Assembly: GCA_001661515.1 (NCBI GenBank)
Contig: LUVW01000002.1
Coordinates: forward strand, 1,048,768 to 1,112,767
Reading direction: 5' to 3'
Source of the DNA: Capniomyces stellatus
Taxonomy: Eukaryota; Kickxellomycota; Harpellomycetes; Harpellales; Legeriomycetaceae
Length of the DNA stretch: 64,000 nucleotides
Shown: one piece after another, positions 38,845 through 63,117 of the stretch
Numbering within the stretch: position 1 is the first letter of the stretch
How the letters are laid out: each line of letters opens with the position of its first letter
Translations under genes and position numbers: made by a program
Notes under the pieces: model-generated
Told to the model about the DNA's origin: nothing
Database searches by the model: none
Seen by the model: only the letters and a program-made list of their open reading frames with translations

Positions 38845-41280
38845 ATGAAGTTTTTAAATTTAGTAAAGTCGTATCTCTTCTACAATACAGTGGATGTTGG
38901 AAAAGGTGGCCTTAATGAGCTATCTAACAATGTTATAAGCACAACATTAAACTTTAATATAGCTGCAAAAGATCATTTGGGATCCTCAGAAGCCGTTCGT
39001 ATTCTTGAACTGTACTGTAATGATGGTTTAACAAGCATCATTACACTGACATTTAGTGGATCATTGGATGCAGGTAGCAAAACAGTTTCGGATCTGTGCA
39101 GCAATGAGAGTGACTGTTTTGAATTCAATAGGGCTATCAAGGCGTGTTCAGCCAACAGAAAGAAAATATACTTGGGAATTGAAAATTTGGCAGACACAGT
39201 TGACTATAGCTCACCTAACAGGGAAAACGAGTTTCTGGGACTAGTTTGGGACATGTTCTTTTCCAACAAGGGTGACACCAAGAACCTGCTGTCAAATGTC
39301 AAATTTGATGGGGTTGGAGCAAATATGGTAAACAACTCGCCATTTGACTACCCCAACTTTTTTGCTATGCTCAACAAAAAGCAAAGCGAGGTCTCCTCAC
39401 AAAACCTGTCAGTTGACATGAACGTTCATTGCAGTATACCAAGCGACGTGGTAGTTGCTCAACTGCAAAAAAACTATATCGACAATGTGTCTATACAACT
39501 GGGTCAAGATGGCTGTGAAGGGAAAGATGATAGAATTTCAGACATAGGAAGTTGGGCAGAGGTCATCAAAGGCAGCGCAGCAGAAAAAAGCGTGAAAATT
39601 CTATTAGCAGTTGACTTCATCCAAAGCAAAGCAGACAGTCAGTCTGAAACAGCAGAATCGTTGTTTGGAAGCCAAAACTCTGCAATAAAAGCAAATGCAG
39701 ATGTTATTGGTGGGTTCAAGTTGGTATCTCGCAAGAACGGATTGGCAAGATTTGGCACAGTTAAAGATGTTCTTAAAGAGCTTAGCGACGTCAATAAAGC
39801 CGCGGCTTCTAACTCTGAAAACATTGAAGAGAAGGCCAAGTTAATTAAACAGTTTGACGACAACACAGGCCAAAATTACGGATTGAAGTTTGCAGAGGAT
39901 GGATCAGAGGACGGTGAAATGCCAAAAAACAATAAGGGTGGATTTAAGAAGCGTGAGTTTAACGTTGAAAAGGGCAACATGTTGGTGAGAAATATCGATA
40001 TTGATGGCAATTTGGATTCCGGTGATAAAGTTGCCACCAAAAACGTTACAGAGGTCAAGACAGAGAATGTACTGGTTGTTGAGACTAGGGTAAAAACACA
40101 CACACCAGTAGTTACTGTAAAAGCAAGTGTCAATGGTTTAAAAAAGAGTGGCAGCGCAAAGCTTTCAACAGAAACACTAGTCAAGACGGCTGTTGAAAAA
40201 GTGCTTGTAACAGAAACAGTAAAAGTCGAGAGCTTGGTTATGAGCACAAATACAGTGGTCAAGATGGAAACATCAAATGTGATTGTTACAGAAGTTGTAC
40301 GCCTTCAAAGTCTAGTCAAGAGATTCGATACAGTTGTAGAAACAGAGGTTCAGAATTTGGTGGTTACCGTAACAGAAAAGGAAGCAACAGAAACAATTGC
40401 TGGGAATACGTTGATAGTAACAGAGAAGTCAGTAGTTGTTGTGACTGAAACTGAAGGCCGCATCACTGAAACTGTGTCAGACTCTGTTGCAACTATCGTG
40501 GAGACCCTTGTTGAAACAGCGGTTACACACGTAACAGTAAAAGGAGATGATGTCACCGAGACAGTTGCTGGAAATACCATCATCGTGACAGAAAAATCGG
40601 TGGTTGTTGTAACTGAAACTGAAGGCCGCATCACTGAAACCGTGTCAGACTCCGCTGCAACTATTGTGGAAACCCTTGTTGAAACAGCGGTTACACACGT
40701 AACAGTAAAAGGAGATGATGTCACCGAGACAGTTGCTGGAAATACCATCATCGTGACAGAGAAGTCAGTGGTTGTTGTGACTGAAACTGAAGGCCGCATC
40801 ACTGAAACTGTGTCAGAATCTGTTGCAACTATCGTGGAAACCCTTGTTGAGACATCAGTATTGCACGTAACAGTAAAAGGAGATGATGTTACTGAAACAG
40901 TTGCTGGAAACGTTGTGATAGTGACAGAAAAGGCAGTGGTAACTGTAACGGAAACAGATAGCAGGGTTGTCAAAACCGTTACAGAGTCCATTGCGACTGT
41001 AATTGAAACCAAGATCGAAACCAAGGTTGAGCACACAGTAGTTACTGAAAGGGTGCCTACATTGACTGTTGGAGGGTCTACGGTGACAGTTGTTGAGCAA
41101 TCTGTAATTACTGTTACCGAGGACGGGAACTTGCTTTTGAAAACCATATCGACATCTGTTGCAACGCTATTTGAAACCTTATTCGAGACATTGGTCAGAA
41201 CAAAAACTGAAAACGTTGTACACACCGTAACCGAAACTGTAGAAACAGGAATAGTAGAAACAGAAACTGTCAGTGCTTAG
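38845..41280 (+). CDS. Catalytically degenerate GH18 (class III chitinase-like) protein with VTET tandem repeats
   Basis: An intronless gene of about 811 aa. Residues about 10-310 follow the order of class III (hevamine-type) chitinases: CNDGLTSIITLTFSG, NRKKIYLGIENLAD, VKFDGVGANMVNNS, FDYPNFFAML, HCSIPSDVVVAQLQ, YIDNVSIQLGQDGC and VIGGFKLVSRKNGLARFG. The catalytic DGxDxDxE motif is replaced by DGVGANMVNN, so the general acid Glu and both upstream Asp of the DxDxE are gone and chitin hydrolysis is not expected. A charged linker follows, then about five units of a 56-aa Val/Thr/Glu-rich repeat (VTETVAGNTIIVTEKSVVVV...) to the C-terminus. No clear signal peptide is seen at this start; an upstream exon cannot be excluded. 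A wall, spore-coat or adhesive role is inference. Confidence 0.78.
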   Translation: MKFLNLVKSYLFYNTVDVGKGGLNELSNNVISTTLNFNIAAKDHLGSSEAVRILELYCNDGLTSIITLTFSGSLDAGSKTVSDLCSNESDCFEFNRAIKACSANRKKIYLGIENLADTVDYSSPNRENEFLGLVWDMFFSNKGDTKNLLSNVKFDGVGANMVNNSPFDYPNFFAMLNKKQSEVSSQNLSVDMNVHCSIPSDVVVAQLQKNYIDNVSIQLGQDGCEGKDDRISDIGSWAEVIKGSAAEKSVKILLAVDFIQSKADSQSETAESLFGSQNSAIKANADVIGGFKLVSRKNGLARFGTVKDVLKELSDVNKAAASNSENIEEKAKLIKQFDDNTGQNYGLKFAEDGSEDGEMPKNNKGGFKKREFNVEKGNMLVRNIDIDGNLDSGDKVATKNVTEVKTENVLVVETRVKTHTPVVTVKASVNGLKKSGSAKLSTETLVKTAVEKVLVTETVKVESLVMSTNTVVKMETSNVIVTEVVRLQSLVKRFDTVVETEVQNLVVTVTEKEATETIAGNTLIVTEKSVVVVTETEGRITETVSDSVATIVETLVETAVTHVTVKGDDVTETVAGNTIIVTEKSVVVVTETEGRITETVSDSAATIVETLVETAVTHVTVKGDDVTETVAGNTIIVTEKSVVVVTETEGRITETVSESVATIVETLVETSVLHVTVKGDDVTETVAGNVVIVTEKAVVTVTETDSRVVKTVTESIATVIETKIETKVEHTVVTERVPTLTVGGSTVTVVEQSVITVTEDGNLLLKTISTSVATLFETLFETLVRTKTENVVHTVTETVETGIVETETVSA
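40399..41234 (+). repeat. 168-bp in-frame coding tandem repeat, ~5 units
   Basis: Units begin at 40399, 40567, 40735 and 40903, each exactly 168 bp apart (56 codons). A diverged fifth unit starts near 41069. Units 1-3 are nearly identical at nucleotide level; unit 4 is partly diverged. The encoded repeat alternates hydrophobic Val/Ile with Thr and Glu, suggesting extended beta-strands. Confidence 0.9.
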
Positions 41281-45233: not shown

Positions 45234-48200
45234 ATGCTAGGATATGAAAGCTTTGACGAAAATGAGTGCGAGTATGGAAAGAGCAATTTGATAGACACTG
45301 ACAGCTGCAGCGACAACGAAACAGTTGAAGGGACGCAAATGAGTCTGCTACCTCCAAAGTCGATTTTTAGTAATTCCATACCAGAAACCAAAACAAACGA
45401 GTTAATCCGTGTTTCTAATCGGACAGGGGTAAGCAACGCTAAGGCGGCAGGGTTTGGGGTAAGCGATAAAGCAGTGTCAACAAGCAGCAGGTTTGATCTC
45501 TCTGCACACAATACTAAAAGTAGAGATAAGGGACGAGGAAATAGTGCAGACAGGACCGAGATATTATGTAATAATACGATAGAAATCCAAGAAACTTCGG
45601 AAATGGCAGTAAATGAAGATATTCAAAAAGATGAAGGCGAAGGATATTTTGGAAGCATAAGCAGAAATAGCGATGGGAGCGGTAGCGAAAGCGAGATTGA
45701 GGCCACACAGTATACGGGGACCAGGAGTTACAAGGGTATGAATGATAAAACGCTATTTGAGACGAATTTGGAGCACAAAACGAAACAGGTTGGTGGGGAT
45801 ATCGAGGTGACTAGTTCAAGCACAGTGGCGAATTCGGGGAGAGAAATGGACAAGCTGGATTTGATGGATTCGTTTAATGAAGGGCTTTTAACGAATTTTA
45901 GCATGAGTGTGGGCACTGGCGACATAAATGCGACGCCAGACTGGAACCGATATAACCAGACCCGGACAATGTTCAAGAATCAAGCAGGAACTGAGAAGGA
46001 TAGATCTGGGGGGTTTGAAGGAGACGGATCTGGGATTGAATCAGATATAGAGTTGGAAAATGACAATAGCTTTGGGTTTGGTGCTGACAGTTTTTTGATG
46101 GAATATGGATCGATTAGAAAAAAGGAGTCCGAGTCAAGGCTGGAAAAGGGAACACCGACGAACTCGATAATCAGAAATGGGATAGGAAAGAAGAATAAGA
46201 AGAAGCAAGTTGCATTTTTGGAAAACAGCGACGAAGATGGCAAAGAAAGCAATGGCGACACAAGCAAAGAAAAGGTAGGGAACATGCATAATCTAGCTAT
46301 GGATACACAGTTTGATTCACCAGAGCACAAAGGCAAGAATCAGCACCAAAACAGTGGCTTCTTGATTGAGGAGACGCAGTTTGATAACAACAGCGTGGCG
46401 CTGGACTCATACAGCACAAACCAACGCGTAGAGGAGTTGGGTGAGATGTCTATGATTGGCGAGACTCAAGGCCATGTTTTTTTCAATGATGAGACGCAAA
46501 CCCAGTCACCTACAGAAACAAGAAACAAGTATGAAGACTCAAGAGAGAGTTTGGTGCTAGCAACACAACTTCAGGAACATAATGATGTGGTCAGGGCTGG
46601 AAACAAAGATGGAGAGTATTGTGTAGATAAGGAGGATACCGAGGCAAGCTATTTGGAAGAAAACACTGACATAAAGGCAGCGGAGACAAGCGAGTTTGTT
46701 TATGAATTTGATACTGAAGATGAGAATGCAAATACCAATATGGATGGCCATGAAGAGGCGGACATTTCGGTTCTAGAAAACGACTCTATAGTGGAAAGTG
46801 CAAACGAGTCGATGATAATTGAGGGTTTTAGCATTGAGGATGGCGGGAATGGCATGTTTTTGGGACAAGAAAGCCAGGCGGTGTCAGGGATAGATGGGAG
46901 TTTGGTGGCAGGAATAGAGGCAGTGTATAACAAGCACAATGCAAGAAGCACAGACAACCAAGATGAAGAAGCGGCAAACGACGTGATTATTGAGAACAAA
47001 GAGATAGGAGAGGAATCAACAGGTAACTATGACGACAGCAGCAGTGAAAGCAATGGATATTTGGAGGATGAATTTGGGGACAGCACCATAACATTGGATA
47101 TTGGAAACACAAGTGTGGGTTTAGGTTTGGATTCAAGCACTAACAAGCCAGAGGTAGAGTTAGAATTAGAGTTGGATTCGGAGCCAGTGGGAAAACCGAG
47201 TGGTAAAAACAAGAGAAAACTTGTAGGATCACACGCGTTTCAATTAAACAAAGGTTCAAGCGAAAACGGGATAGGTAATGACAAAAGCAAAGGTAATGGG
47301 GTTGGTCTAGGGAGAGGGTTTGGGATAGGGGGTGTGGCTGAGGAAGACTTGGAGCTGGGATCGGAGCTGGGGCTGGATTTAGGGCTTGGGACTGGGTTTG
47401 GTAGCACAGGTAAAAACAGAGCAAAGAATAAATACAGAACAAAAGACAGCAACAGTGCAGTAAATGGCAGAAAAATCGATGTTTTGGAGGACATAGAACC
47501 GATTCCCAGAAAGTTGGTGTTTGAAAAGATAAATTTCACGCTGTCAAAAGCCAAGAACGCGGGAGTTAGCAGTAGCGACAAGCCAGGTCCAACCGGACTG
47601 ATCGACAACTTGACAAACCTGAACATCCGAATCAAAAGGAGTAAAGGGAACGAAACAAAGCGTATAATCAGCGAGGTTAAAAGCAAGCGCCAGAGTTTCC
47701 AAGTAGGCAATTTTTGGCAATCAAATCCAGTCCTCATTCCCAGTGCCAAAAACAAAACCATAAAGTCGTACCTCAACTCCAGAAGCTCCATGGACCACAG
47801 GGACCCAAGCCAGACCACCGCCAGCAAAGATGGGAATCCAAATGCAGAAAGTACGCCATCCAGTACAGACGCAGAGTTGGGTATCAGGGGAAGATCTGGG
47901 TTTGGGAACTCGTTTGGCAGCACGAAATCGCCTAATAAAAACACCAGCGTAATTGGGGTGCTAGCAAACAGACTGTCGTTTAACCTGAGAAACCCCAGTA
48001 TAGGTAGCGGTAAAAAGAGCAGAGACAATGAGGATGGAGATGAAGACAAAAATGAAAATGAAAATAAGGGTGAAAATGAAAGTGAGGATGAAAACGAGGA
48101 TGTGAGAAGGGATTCTTTTGCCAAAGTAAACACACCTGTTTTGATAAACAAGGGTAAAGACAAAGACAAAAACATCGCTTTGCCTGACTCAATAGTTCAA

Positions 48201-50075
48201 AGGCATGATATCACGCCAGGGTTGGAGGAAAGTAGCTTTAGAACTACGCCAGGATTGATTTCGATGAATACACCATGCACGCCCGGGTCATTGGTGCGAA
48301 GAAGCAGGAACACGCCGGGGTCGCTGGGGTCGCTGGGGAGAAGCAACCAGAACACGCCAGGGTCAATAGGGAGATTTACGCGAACCAATGGTGGGTGGGT
48401 GTGGTTTTCGCTTCCAGGAAACAAGCTGACTTATGTCCCAGCGATTCTGATGTCGTCAGACTCAATAGCCAACCCATTGGACCGCGGTGGGGGCAAAAGG
48501 CTGGCCGCTGTAACCGTATCACCAGCGCAGCCAAAGTCTCGAGGCTTTACTGTGTTCCCAGTCGACTCATTAACGCCCTCCAACATCAAGCCGCTAAGCT
48601 GCGGGGATAGAGTGTGGGCAGTTAGGAAGCGAAGAAGAATAGTTGAAAGCGCGACTGTGCTATTTGCACCAAACAAACAAACAACGGATGGAATGAAAAT
48701 TTGTCTGGGCGGAAAAGAGAAGCAGAAGAGCAAGGAATCACAGATTGAGCTGGTTTTACAGTTTGACAAGGACTGTATCCAGCAGTCTGTCCCAATCCAC
48801 AAAGTCTACACTTCCAGGATACTGCTGTGTTTGCCAGACTCGGTACACAAAAGCGGCCGGGAATCCTGGAGCAGAAATAGAAATAGAAATAGAGATAGCA
48901 ACGGTACAGGGAAAAGAAAACAGAGGCGAAACGATATAAGCTACCTGGATGAGCTGGACGACACTCCAAGCAACAGGCAGAGACTAAAGCCAATGTCAAG
49001 AACCACATCCATAGACGTAGACGTGGATGTGGACGAGGACATGGTAAGCAGCAACGAGACACAGCAAGACAGAGTTTCCAGAGGTCCTGTAAGCCAGATA
49101 TTCAAGCACTACTCGTTCCTTATAACCATCAGCCCTACATTCAGCAAGTCAGAGTACTTTGCTGATCTGTACACAAGGTTCCTGGACATTGAGAACGGCT
49201 GCAGAACACAGGAAGAGTCGCAGAATAACATTGGCGCTGAGAATCTGCTGCCCATCTGGCCCACAAACGCCTCCTCAAATCAAAAAACCGCTGCTGCCAG
49301 TTTGCACCTGCTGAGCTTTGACAAGGTGCTGCTGGCAAAGTCTATCAAGTTGCGAGGCGGCAAAATAGTCTCTGATCCGTTTAGCCCTGAAGTTGGCTGC
49401 CTTGACCCAGAACTCACCATTGTTATTGCCGACACCCCCTCAGCCACCCCCAAGTACCTGGTGGGTCTGGCCAACGGGTTCAAGCTAGTTTCGCTGGTTT
49501 GGGCTTTGAAGTCTGTTGTTAATAACTGCATTGAGCCTCTACACTTCTACTATCTTGCCAATGGCTGGTCAGATGAACTGAACAGCGCCTGTGTGTCCCC
49601 ATTCCAGCCCGCCTTTATGTCTGGGTACAAAGTCATGGTGTTTGGCTCCTCTTTGTTCCAAACCAATTGGTCCTCTATTTTCAAGTCTATTGGCGCCACC
49701 TTGGTCCCTCCCCCATCCAGGTCTGTACTGCCTCCTCCAACTCCCTCGTCCACCCCATCTGCCCCCACTCGCTCGCCACCTTCTGCTCTCTCAATCACCA
49801 CCAAACTATCTCTTGACTTTGTTCTAACCGAATCCCCCCCTGACATAATTTGGAGATCGCAGATCTGCTCAATATACAATACCTGCCATCCTGCCCTAGT
49901 TCCTTCCAACTGCCACAACAATCCCAACACCGCTTTCCCTGCTTTCGTCTCAAGTTTGTGGGCCAGACAGTCCCTAATAAACCAAAGAGTCATGTCTGAT
50001 CTAGACCTTGTTAACTCCTACCAGGTTTATACCCATAAAGCCACCAACTCTATGAAACTCATCAAACTTTCTTGA
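45234..50075 (+). CDS. crb2: Crb2/Rad9/53BP1-type DNA-damage checkpoint mediator with Tudor-like and tandem BRCT domains
   Basis: A single 1,613-aa open frame with no intron, unusual among its intron-rich neighbours. The N-terminal two thirds are acidic and disordered, with repeated TQ sites in similar contexts (EGTQ, EATQ, MDTQFDSP, EETQFDNN, GETQ, DETQTQ, LATQ), as in ATM/ATR-phosphorylated mediators. A block of TPG motifs (about residues 1000-1045) directly precedes a Tudor-like domain starting GGWVWFSLPGNKLTYVPAIL (about 1050-1155). Tandem BRCT repeats follow from HYSFLITISP (about 1290) to the end, including LVSLVWALKSV and GYKVMVFGSS. The layout matches Crb2, Rad9 and 53BP1, which bind methylated histone H4 and gamma-H2A and activate checkpoint kinase. 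Pro/Ser-rich insertion splits the second BRCT. Confidence 0.85.
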   Translation: MLGYESFDENECEYGKSNLIDTDSCSDNETVEGTQMSLLPPKSIFSNSIPETKTNELIRVSNRTGVSNAKAAGFGVSDKAVSTSSRFDLSAHNTKSRDKGRGNSADRTEILCNNTIEIQETSEMAVNEDIQKDEGEGYFGSISRNSDGSGSESEIEATQYTGTRSYKGMNDKTLFETNLEHKTKQVGGDIEVTSSSTVANSGREMDKLDLMDSFNEGLLTNFSMSVGTGDINATPDWNRYNQTRTMFKNQAGTEKDRSGGFEGDGSGIESDIELENDNSFGFGADSFLMEYGSIRKKESESRLEKGTPTNSIIRNGIGKKNKKKQVAFLENSDEDGKESNGDTSKEKVGNMHNLAMDTQFDSPEHKGKNQHQNSGFLIEETQFDNNSVALDSYSTNQRVEELGEMSMIGETQGHVFFNDETQTQSPTETRNKYEDSRESLVLATQLQEHNDVVRAGNKDGEYCVDKEDTEASYLEENTDIKAAETSEFVYEFDTEDENANTNMDGHEEADISVLENDSIVESANESMIIEGFSIEDGGNGMFLGQESQAVSGIDGSLVAGIEAVYNKHNARSTDNQDEEAANDVIIENKEIGEESTGNYDDSSSESNGYLEDEFGDSTITLDIGNTSVGLGLDSSTNKPEVELELELDSEPVGKPSGKNKRKLVGSHAFQLNKGSSENGIGNDKSKGNGVGLGRGFGIGGVAEEDLELGSELGLDLGLGTGFGSTGKNRAKNKYRTKDSNSAVNGRKIDVLEDIEPIPRKLVFEKINFTLSKAKNAGVSSSDKPGPTGLIDNLTNLNIRIKRSKGNETKRIISEVKSKRQSFQVGNFWQSNPVLIPSAKNKTIKSYLNSRSSMDHRDPSQTTASKDGNPNAESTPSSTDAELGIRGRSGFGNSFGSTKSPNKNTSVIGVLANRLSFNLRNPSIGSGKKSRDNEDGDEDKNENENKGENESEDENEDVRRDSFAKVNTPVLINKGKDKDKNIALPDSIVQRHDITPGLEESSFRTTPGLISMNTPCTPGSLVRRSRNTPGSLGSLGRSNQNTPGSIGRFTRTNGGWVWFSLPGNKLTYVPAILMSSDSIANPLDRGGGKRLAAVTVSPAQPKSRGFTVFPVDSLTPSNIKPLSCGDRVWAVRKRRRIVESATVLFAPNKQTTDGMKICLGGKEKQKSKESQIELVLQFDKDCIQQSVPIHKVYTSRILLCLPDSVHKSGRESWSRNRNRNRDSNGTGKRKQRRNDISYLDELDDTPSNRQRLKPMSRTTSIDVDVDVDEDMVSSNETQQDRVSRGPVSQIFKHYSFLITISPTFSKSEYFADLYTRFLDIENGCRTQEESQNNIGAENLLPIWPTNASSNQKTAAASLHLLSFDKVLLAKSIKLRGGKIVSDPFSPEVGCLDPELTIVIADTPSATPKYLVGLANGFKLVSLVWALKSVVNNCIEPLHFYYLANGWSDELNSACVSPFQPAFMSGYKVMVFGSSLFQTNWSSIFKSIGATLVPPPSRSVLPPPTPSSTPSAPTRSPPSALSITTKLSLDFVLTESPPDIIWRSQICSIYNTCHPALVPSNCHNNPNTAFPAFVSSLWARQSLINQRVMSDLDLVNSYQVYTHKATNSMKLIKLS

Positions 50076-61530: not shown

Positions 61531-63117
61531 ATGAAAATCATTATACTGAACTTGGGATTGATAATTGCTTTTCCAAGCCAGACGCCAGGCGTTGCTGAGA
61601 ATCCTGGCGTAAATATGACATTGCACAAGAGAGTTATCGGCGACGGACCTATACCCATAACTGATCTGCCATACGTTGTAACAATAAGGATCCCTGAAAT
61701 ACCTGGAAAGGAAAATGATTATAACTACTGTGGAGGATCGATAATCTCACATGAATATATTCTCACCGCTGCTCATTGCGTGAGAGATACTGCATTAAAC
61801 ATGTTGGCTGGACAAATAAGATTCACTGCAAACACTAACACCAGGATAAATGAAAAAAGCAAAGGATATAAAATAAGCATGATTATAATTCATCCCATGT
61901 ACGATAATTTTAACTGTTTTAATGATCTTGCTTTGCTGAAGATCGATGCCGAAGACTCTAAAAAACTCGAAATGGAACCAGCCAAACTCTACAGCAAGGA
62001 GATTAGTTTTCCCCTCGCTGCCAAAACTGCTTGTTGGGGGGGCGTTGATACGGATATAGACATCCATGAGCCCTTTAAATTAGAAGCTCGTGAATGTGAT
62101 ATACTGGATGGGATCAAAGTTAAACAGTCTATTGTTGAAGAATATTATTTCATGAACAACGTTTTATTTTCGTACAGCAAAGATAGTGTTGGTTTTGCAT
62201 ATGGTGACCCTGGCGGGCCAATATACTCGCCATCAGATAAAAATGCTATAGTTGGAATTGTTTCACAAAGTACGTTTATTACTCCCAATGATGAAAATAT
62301 TGTTGGATTTAAGAAACCGCCAAGAATTAAGGTAGACTTGAGAATGGATGTTCATTTGATCTGGTTCATTGGCTGGATTCTTAAAGAAACTAAACTGAGT
62401 GAGCACAATTTGCTAAGCCATGTCGATGAATATAAACAATGGAGCGCAATGCAGGCCGGAAGAGATGAAGAGGAAAGTGAAATCAAAAAAAATATCATGG
62501 ATAAATTACAAGAAGATCTGGATAACAAGGTCAAAGATGCTAAGAAAAATATGGATAAGCTTGTACTTGGAGTGATTGAGCAAAGCAAAGGTGAAGTAAA
62601 GCACGAGTTGAAGCTTTTGATTAAAGAACTGGAACCATCAAAAACAATAAATTATGACAAAGACGGCACCATTAGCGCAGAATATAAAGAAAGGTTTGAC
62701 AAACTAAATATTAGTTTGGTTATCAAGCGTAACATGCCTTCCAACGACCAATTGGCAAACCGTTTTGTATATGACGCTGTAATAGAATCCAAAAATTTAG
62801 CCGAGAAAACAGCGAAAGATATGCTTAGCCTGAGCAAAATATACGGCTTTCAAATCATAAATGATATACATAACTTTGAAACCGGGAAAACCAAAGCCAA
62901 GGTGCGTGAAGCCAGTTTGAAGTACCTGGAATCCCCAACTCAGCCATCCAAGACTTCAGAAATACTTAATGGATCAACTTTTCAAGCTATGTTTAACAAA
63001 TTCGCTATTGAAAAGACCGAATTGTACGCCGAGGAAAGTAAAGCAGTCAAAAAAAGTCTAAAGGGCCAGATAAAGCGTCTCAAAAGTGCGCTACAACTGT
63101 ACTTTAAGATGAAGTAG
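61531..63117 (+). CDS. Secreted trypsin-like (S1) protein with inactivated catalytic serine and long C-terminal extension
   Basis: A 528-aa intronless protein. Residues 1-18 form a signal peptide. KR-VIGDG at 33-39 resembles the trypsin activation site (R-IVGG). The catalytic His is in ILTAAHC (His82) and the Asp in NDLALLKI (Asp132). The serine box reads YGDPGGPIY, so the nucleophile Ser is Pro227 and proteolysis is not expected. A flanking block (AIVGIVSQ) supports the fold. Residues about 290-528 are a Lys/Glu-rich, helical extension (DKLQEDLDNKVKDAKKNMDK) without a recognised domain, probably coiled coil. Trypsin-like pseudoproteases act as binding or regulatory proteins in animals, and a similar secreted role is inference. 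It lies between two retrotransposon remnants. Confidence 0.85.
   Translation: MKIIILNLGLIIAFPSQTPGVAENPGVNMTLHKRVIGDGPIPITDLPYVVTIRIPEIPGKENDYNYCGGSIISHEYILTAAHCVRDTALNMLAGQIRFTANTNTRINEKSKGYKISMIIIHPMYDNFNCFNDLALLKIDAEDSKKLEMEPAKLYSKEISFPLAAKTACWGGVDTDIDIHEPFKLEARECDILDGIKVKQSIVEEYYFMNNVLFSYSKDSVGFAYGDPGGPIYSPSDKNAIVGIVSQSTFITPNDENIVGFKKPPRIKVDLRMDVHLIWFIGWILKETKLSEHNLLSHVDEYKQWSAMQAGRDEEESEIKKNIMDKLQEDLDNKVKDAKKNMDKLVLGVIEQSKGEVKHELKLLIKELEPSKTINYDKDGTISAEYKERFDKLNISLVIKRNMPSNDQLANRFVYDAVIESKNLAEKTAKDMLSLSKIYGFQIINDIHNFETGKTKAKVREASLKYLESPTQPSKTSEILNGSTFQAMFNKFAIEKTELYAEESKAVKKSLKGQIKRLKSALQLYFKMK

Follow-up and report, generated by a model that had tools for sequence, protein, structure and literature searches.

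What does a chitinase do once its catalytic residues and sugar-binding cleft have gone and its barrel remains? The question is raised by a gene at positions 38845..41280 (+ strand) of a 64,000-nucleotide stretch of DNA from Capniomyces stellatus. This stretch, 'the window', forms the final 64 kb of a 1.11-Mb contig in a genome assembly of 24.51 Mb and 59 contigs; its GC content is 38.8%. The gene is a single exon—ATG at 38845, stop codon at 41278–41280—and its product of 811 amino acids (aa) comprises a head that resembles a GH18 chitinase and a long repeat tail. In random sequence of the same composition, an open frame of 345 codons would arise with a probability of about 1e-10 per start. A preliminary description saw here a pseudo-chitinase that might hold chitin without hydrolyzing it, and so attach its owner within a chitin-lined gut. 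We favor a different answer, to which we assign a probability of roughly one half: that this is an extracellular structural or adhesive protein whose barrel head is inert or re-purposed, and that it belongs to a family of class III pseudoenzymes.

The ancestry of the head can be read in several ways that agree. A phmmer search of the PDB matches head residues 36–293 to Cts1 of S. cerevisiae (2uy2; E=6e-6), and a profile of the head and its two paralogs, described below, matches a profile of four intact homologs at 99.1%. AlphaFold2 models the head as eight alternating strands and helices, with low to moderate confidence (predicted local distance difference test, pLDDT, 60; predicted template modeling score, pTM, 0.60), so that the predicted fold is an eight-stranded barrel. 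The 29 best Foldseek matches to this model are hevamine-type GH18 chitinases or their inactive relatives, all of which we take to belong to class III. Sequence and model together thus confirm what the preliminary description had proposed: residues ~30–322 (38932..39810), from the model's first strand to its last helix, are predicted to be a highly diverged class III GH18 domain. Pfam does not see it. Neither the whole protein nor the 345-aa head yields any domain at E≤10, PF00704 included, and a search of the genome with PF00704 leaves the gene unmatched. The protein shares barrel fold, six cysteines and order of motifs with Cts1 and other fungal class III enzymes such as AfChiA1, and Cts1 likewise has a Ser/Thr-rich region behind its catalytic domain. 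From these it differs in having lost the catalytic Asp, Asp and Glu along with nearly all of the cleft, in its tail of Val/Thr/Glu-rich 56-aa repeats, and in its invisibility to Pfam.

The loss of catalytic residues is plain in the alignment. The motif DxxDxDxE falls on DGVGANMV, at residues 155–162 (39307..39330), and the last two Asp and the Glu are gone. The preliminary description noted as much and added that the rest of the barrel had been kept, which is true of the fold, but the cleft has not been spared. Of 18 cleft positions, among which the catalytic ones are counted, the window protein keeps 1; of the remaining invariant columns it keeps 26 of 61 (one-sided Fisher p=0.0023). Invariance was set by four intact sequences (ScCts1, P0002, P0004 and P0005) that are not independent, in that P0004 and P0005 are closely related; P0003, a partial barrel, was excluded. 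The 18 positions are our own choice from class III motifs. Wherever the four intact sequences cover them, 17 show no variation; the strand-8 Trp position, Trp 294, was placed by hand after the aligner misplaced it. D155 was scored as scaffold; scored as cleft instead, it changes the counts to 2/19 versus 25/60. The alterations are spread over strands 1, 3, 4, 5, 6 and 8, and it is not only the catalytic acids that have been replaced: the YWGQN, GG, APQ, YNN and Trp motifs have gone with them. What does persist is the set of cysteines. There are exactly six in the protein, all in the head and all at class III positions (C58, C85, C91, C101, C196 and C224), and the retention of these disulfide cysteines suggests a folded and secreted head. 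The designation 'pseudo-chitinase' is supported by these alignments.

Might an overlooked 5' exon supply a signal peptide, or restore DxDxE, as the preliminary description allowed? We think such an exon unnecessary, although a spliced leader is conceivable. The head and those of its two paralogs start at aligned Met codons in a three-way alignment, and the catalytic motif sits within the exon, so no exon upstream could restore it. In the 650 bases upstream, the sole ATG frame of at least 12 codons is 17 codons long and lacks the look of a signal peptide.

A search of the genome with the head finds two paralogs, L011 and L012, both on contig C59; the preliminary description knew neither of these nor that the genome seems to be without an intact class III enzyme. 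The three frames are intact (811 aa in the window, 975 in L011, 1303 in L012), and identity among them is 19–26%. Each paralog also matches class III structures on its own, L012 hitting ScCts1 at 8.3e-14 and L011 hitting ICChI at 2.5e-5. The catalytic motif reads DGIEIPVI in L011 and DGIDLDLD in L012, and so the catalytic Glu is replaced in all three proteins: by Val in the window, by Ile in L011 and by Asp in L012. L012 retains 4 of 17 machine-aligned cleft positions, by a count of its own, and is less eroded than the window protein, yet its Glu has become Asp. Its cysteines stand at the same six residue numbers as those of the window protein; L011 retains four that align. With the Glu gone from all three, and most cleft losses common to the window protein and L012, inactivation before duplication would be the simplest history, one that we infer from three very divergent sequences. 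The tails of the three proteins differ. That of L011 has repeats of 13 and 15 aa, and that of L012, which is 39% Thr, has repeats of 47 aa.

No intact class III GH18 was found in this genome with ScCts1, an intact Conidiobolus homolog and the three heads as queries, in searches run exon by exon on an incomplete assembly. ScCts1 and the Conidiobolus homolog recover only the window gene, L011 and L012; weak extra matches in these searches were L026 (E=0.065) and L030 (E=0.22). L026 was considered as a hidden class III enzyme and set aside, the inspected sequence having no GH18 motif. PF00704 has six matches in the genome, which merge into four genes, L013 to L016, and DxDxE is intact in all four; the motif of L016, NGIDIDWE, lies outside the stricter pattern used for the other three. 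L016 (841–4906, − strand) is a large GH18 gene in two open reading frames (ORFs), in which an acidic stretch and LysM-like and chitin-binding-like repeats precede the intact motif, and a long extra C-terminal part follows; we take it to resemble the yeast killer-toxin-like chitinases. To judge from these searches, the genome appears to lack class III catalysis, although three diverged copies preserve the class III fold.

The preliminary description assigned the entire C-terminal half of the window protein to a 56-aa repeat. The repeat is real, but it covers residues 515–794 only (40387..41226), as five units, and is preceded at residues 323–514 (39811..40386) by a linker and then a Val/Thr-rich stretch in which the 56-aa register is unclear. 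Three units are nearly identical, sharing 51–53 of 56 residues pairwise; the other two have diverged, to 22–32 of 56. Overall the tail is 22% Val, 19% Thr and 12% Glu. Among the three similar copies the synonymous divergence, dS, is 0.32–0.44 and the nonsynonymous divergence, dN, only 0.03–0.06, so that dN/dS is 0.08, 0.17 and 0.13, with 4 to 7 nonsynonymous differences behind each value. The repeats, in other words, are under purifying selection as protein, which disfavors a dead gene. Four 47-aa units of L012 that were compared are identical in DNA, unlike the window repeats, and are hence uninformative on selection; recent expansion or homogenization might account for them. One unit of L011 shows zero amino-acid change by construction, the search key having been the whole unit, and for the others the pooled proportions of synonymous change (pS 0.48 and 0.40) and nonsynonymous change (pN 0.04 and 0.02) point the same way but come from keys that also pre-selected similar copies; we count none of this as evidence. 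Searched against the genome, the window tail matches only itself at E≤0.01, and the L011 tail, too, finds only itself. GC content at third codon positions is 0.41 in the head, 0.36 in the tail and 0.50 in two neighboring large ORFs.

How might all of this fit together? The window protein would be one of three paralogous pseudoenzymes descended from a Cts1-type, class III GH18 chitinase. Its barrel would have been retained as a folded head held by disulfides, the catalytic residues and sugar cleft having been lost, and fused to a long repeat tail, distinct in each paralog. Most likely it is exported by the secretory pathway, and on the outside of the cell it would lend structure or adhesion, but no enzyme activity, to the wall, the spore coat or the holdfast material. 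The tail may supply reach or self-association, and the head may be a folded end that binds something besides chitin, or nothing at all.

The gut setting assumed by the preliminary description fits the organism. A neighboring M3 peptidase is closest to that of Zancudomyces culisetae (51%), then Smittium angustum (46%) and Coemansia (40–44%), among the best 120 of 1541 matches, an affinity that supports placing the genome in the Harpellales, and C. stellatus lives in the stonefly hindgut (PMC4974312). Harpellales secrete holdfasts that serve for attachment (PMC7270078), and reports credit their spores with the release of glue inside the gut (PMC5954228); a candidate put forward by Wang et al. 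2018 for gut attachment is a fasciclin-domain protein (PMC5954228). A role in holdfast or spore glue would be plausible for the window protein. Flo and Als, the modular adhesins of yeasts, also consist of a folded head and Thr-rich repeats of variable length. The window protein has the Thr-rich tandem region, in its five 56-aa units, but its head derives from an enzyme, and no C-terminal signal for a glycosylphosphatidylinositol (GPI) anchor is evident.

Several things weigh against an extracellular structural or adhesive role. Secretion, location and adhesion are all deduced. The signal-like N-terminus (residues 1–25; 38845..38919), which aligns with the N-termini of the paralogs, is weak in the window copy: its best 10-residue hydropathy is 1.17, versus 1.48 in L011 and 2.34 in L012, where it looks stronger. 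The charged and polar C-terminus (residues 795–811 plus stop; 41227..41280), ending VETGIVETETVSA, was judged by eye and hydropathy and shows neither a GPI-like nor a transmembrane segment; the best hydropathy window nearby is 1.28. L011 has lost about half of its barrel, which may mean that the head is dispensable or in decay. The structure model of the tail (pLDDT 31.7) is uninterpretable. Outside the genome, a search with the head in full-length context gave no homolog of this architecture among 4107 candidates, these being proteins that share 5-residue words and satisfy length limits. Its absence there is meaningful because the database includes proteins of Zancudomyces, Smittium and Coemansia. 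With the three-head profile, 4 of 6786 candidates match, and the motif is intact in all four.

The strongest competitor is the proposal of the preliminary description itself, in which the dead barrel still grips chitin, whether in the gut lining or in the wall of the fungus, and is displayed by the tail. The class III origin of the head and the gut habitat both speak for it, and there is a precedent in MpChi, an inactive GH18 effector of Moniliophthora perniciosa, of the fungal secreted type and likewise broken in its catalytic motif, which binds chitin oligomers (PMC8960721). MpChi, however, is described with two substitutions and, in the available part of the source, with no mention of a repeat tail (PMC8960721). 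Its type combines a broken motif with a preserved cleft; here the cleft is not preserved, 17 of the 18 chosen positions having changed, the strand-8 Trp included. With the cleft erased, chitin is disfavored as a ligand of the head, binding through the old cleft is unlikely on sequence grounds, and the proposal as a whole, less likely than a structural or adhesive role for the same reason, strikes us as improbable.

Rather doubtful, too, is a head that binds protein, in the manner of the GH18-derived inhibitors of plants, with the surface of the barrel gripping an enzyme of the gut or its bacteria, or a wall protein. XIP-I, XAIP and concanavalin B have class III-type barrels, rank high in the structural lists and re-use the barrel in non-enzymatic roles without chitinase activity. 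These are plant proteins without a repeat tail, however, and are only 14–16% identical to the window head; the fold similarity of the head to the XIP type ties with that to active enzymes, and a conserved surface patch lies beyond the reach of three sequences.

There is a slim chance that head and tail part company after secretion. Each of the three proteins has KR dibasic sites C-terminal to its head—KKR at residues 368–370 of the window protein, IKKRQ in L011, AKRN and NKRL in L012—and so cleavage between head and tail is conceivable; we take the KKR to be a possible Kex2-type site. The barrel might then be a mere pro-domain or folding aid, and the half-lost barrel of L011 would be tolerated. 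KR pairs are frequent enough by chance, however, that three out of three is weak.

A former chitinase decaying under relaxed constraint, without function, seems very unlikely. Its extreme divergence from its paralogs and the half barrel of L011 are what decay might produce, but the frames of 811, 975 and 1303 aa are intact, all six cysteines have been retained, and dN/dS in the repeats is well below 1. Least credible of all is a new enzyme acting on another sugar, for although the barrel fold has been retained, no new pair of acids is common to the three heads, D155 and D168 being the only invariant acids in the three-way alignment.

Dead GH18 proteins are already known in both plants and fungi, and one with a Ser/Thr-rich region is not new. 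Cts7 of Histoplasma has such a region and, like the window protein, lacks active-site Asp residues; it belongs, however, to subclade A-IV and not to the B clade, and no 56-aa repeat is mentioned in the available part of the source (PMC8042737). For the three-gene family, no description was found among the matches listed in the open-licence literature.

Two other genes of the window can be noted in passing. A trypsin-domain gene (61531–63117, + strand; PF00089, E=2.7e-21) lies near the contig end. The genome yields 120 trypsin matches, a number that includes separate exons of a single gene, and the window copy scores identically to one on contig C27, which suggests a recent duplication. Between the trypsin-domain gene and the pseudo-chitinase, at 45234–50075 (+ strand), is an ORF of 1613 aa whose BRCT match, at 21.3 bits, is weak and sits at the cut-off, possibly a large repair or replication protein.

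If an extracellular structural or adhesive role is near the mark, what might it mean? We take the B clade of a published survey of 373 fungal genomes to be class III. Among early-diverging fungi the survey, in its available part, names only Basidiobolus and Mucorales in that clade (PMC8042737). The boldest account would be that the class III chitinases of this lineage of gut fungi lost both catalysis and chitin binding, probably before duplication, and turned into repeat proteins that are secreted to form holdfast glue or the thread-like appendages by which spores keep their grip in the gut, leaving no active class III enzyme and a family that Pfam surveys miss. As a whole this is speculative, and we would not bet on it. 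More modestly, the three genes suggest that class III GH18 may persist in a genome with every copy found catalytically dead and invisible to Pfam. If surveys depend on Pfam, such remnants would be overlooked. By which molecules Harpellales grip the gut lining seems to be an open question, for which cleft-less heads on separate repeat tails offer a concrete, testable candidate family. The findings suggest an enzyme seemingly recycled into a structural or sticky protein of the cell's exterior.
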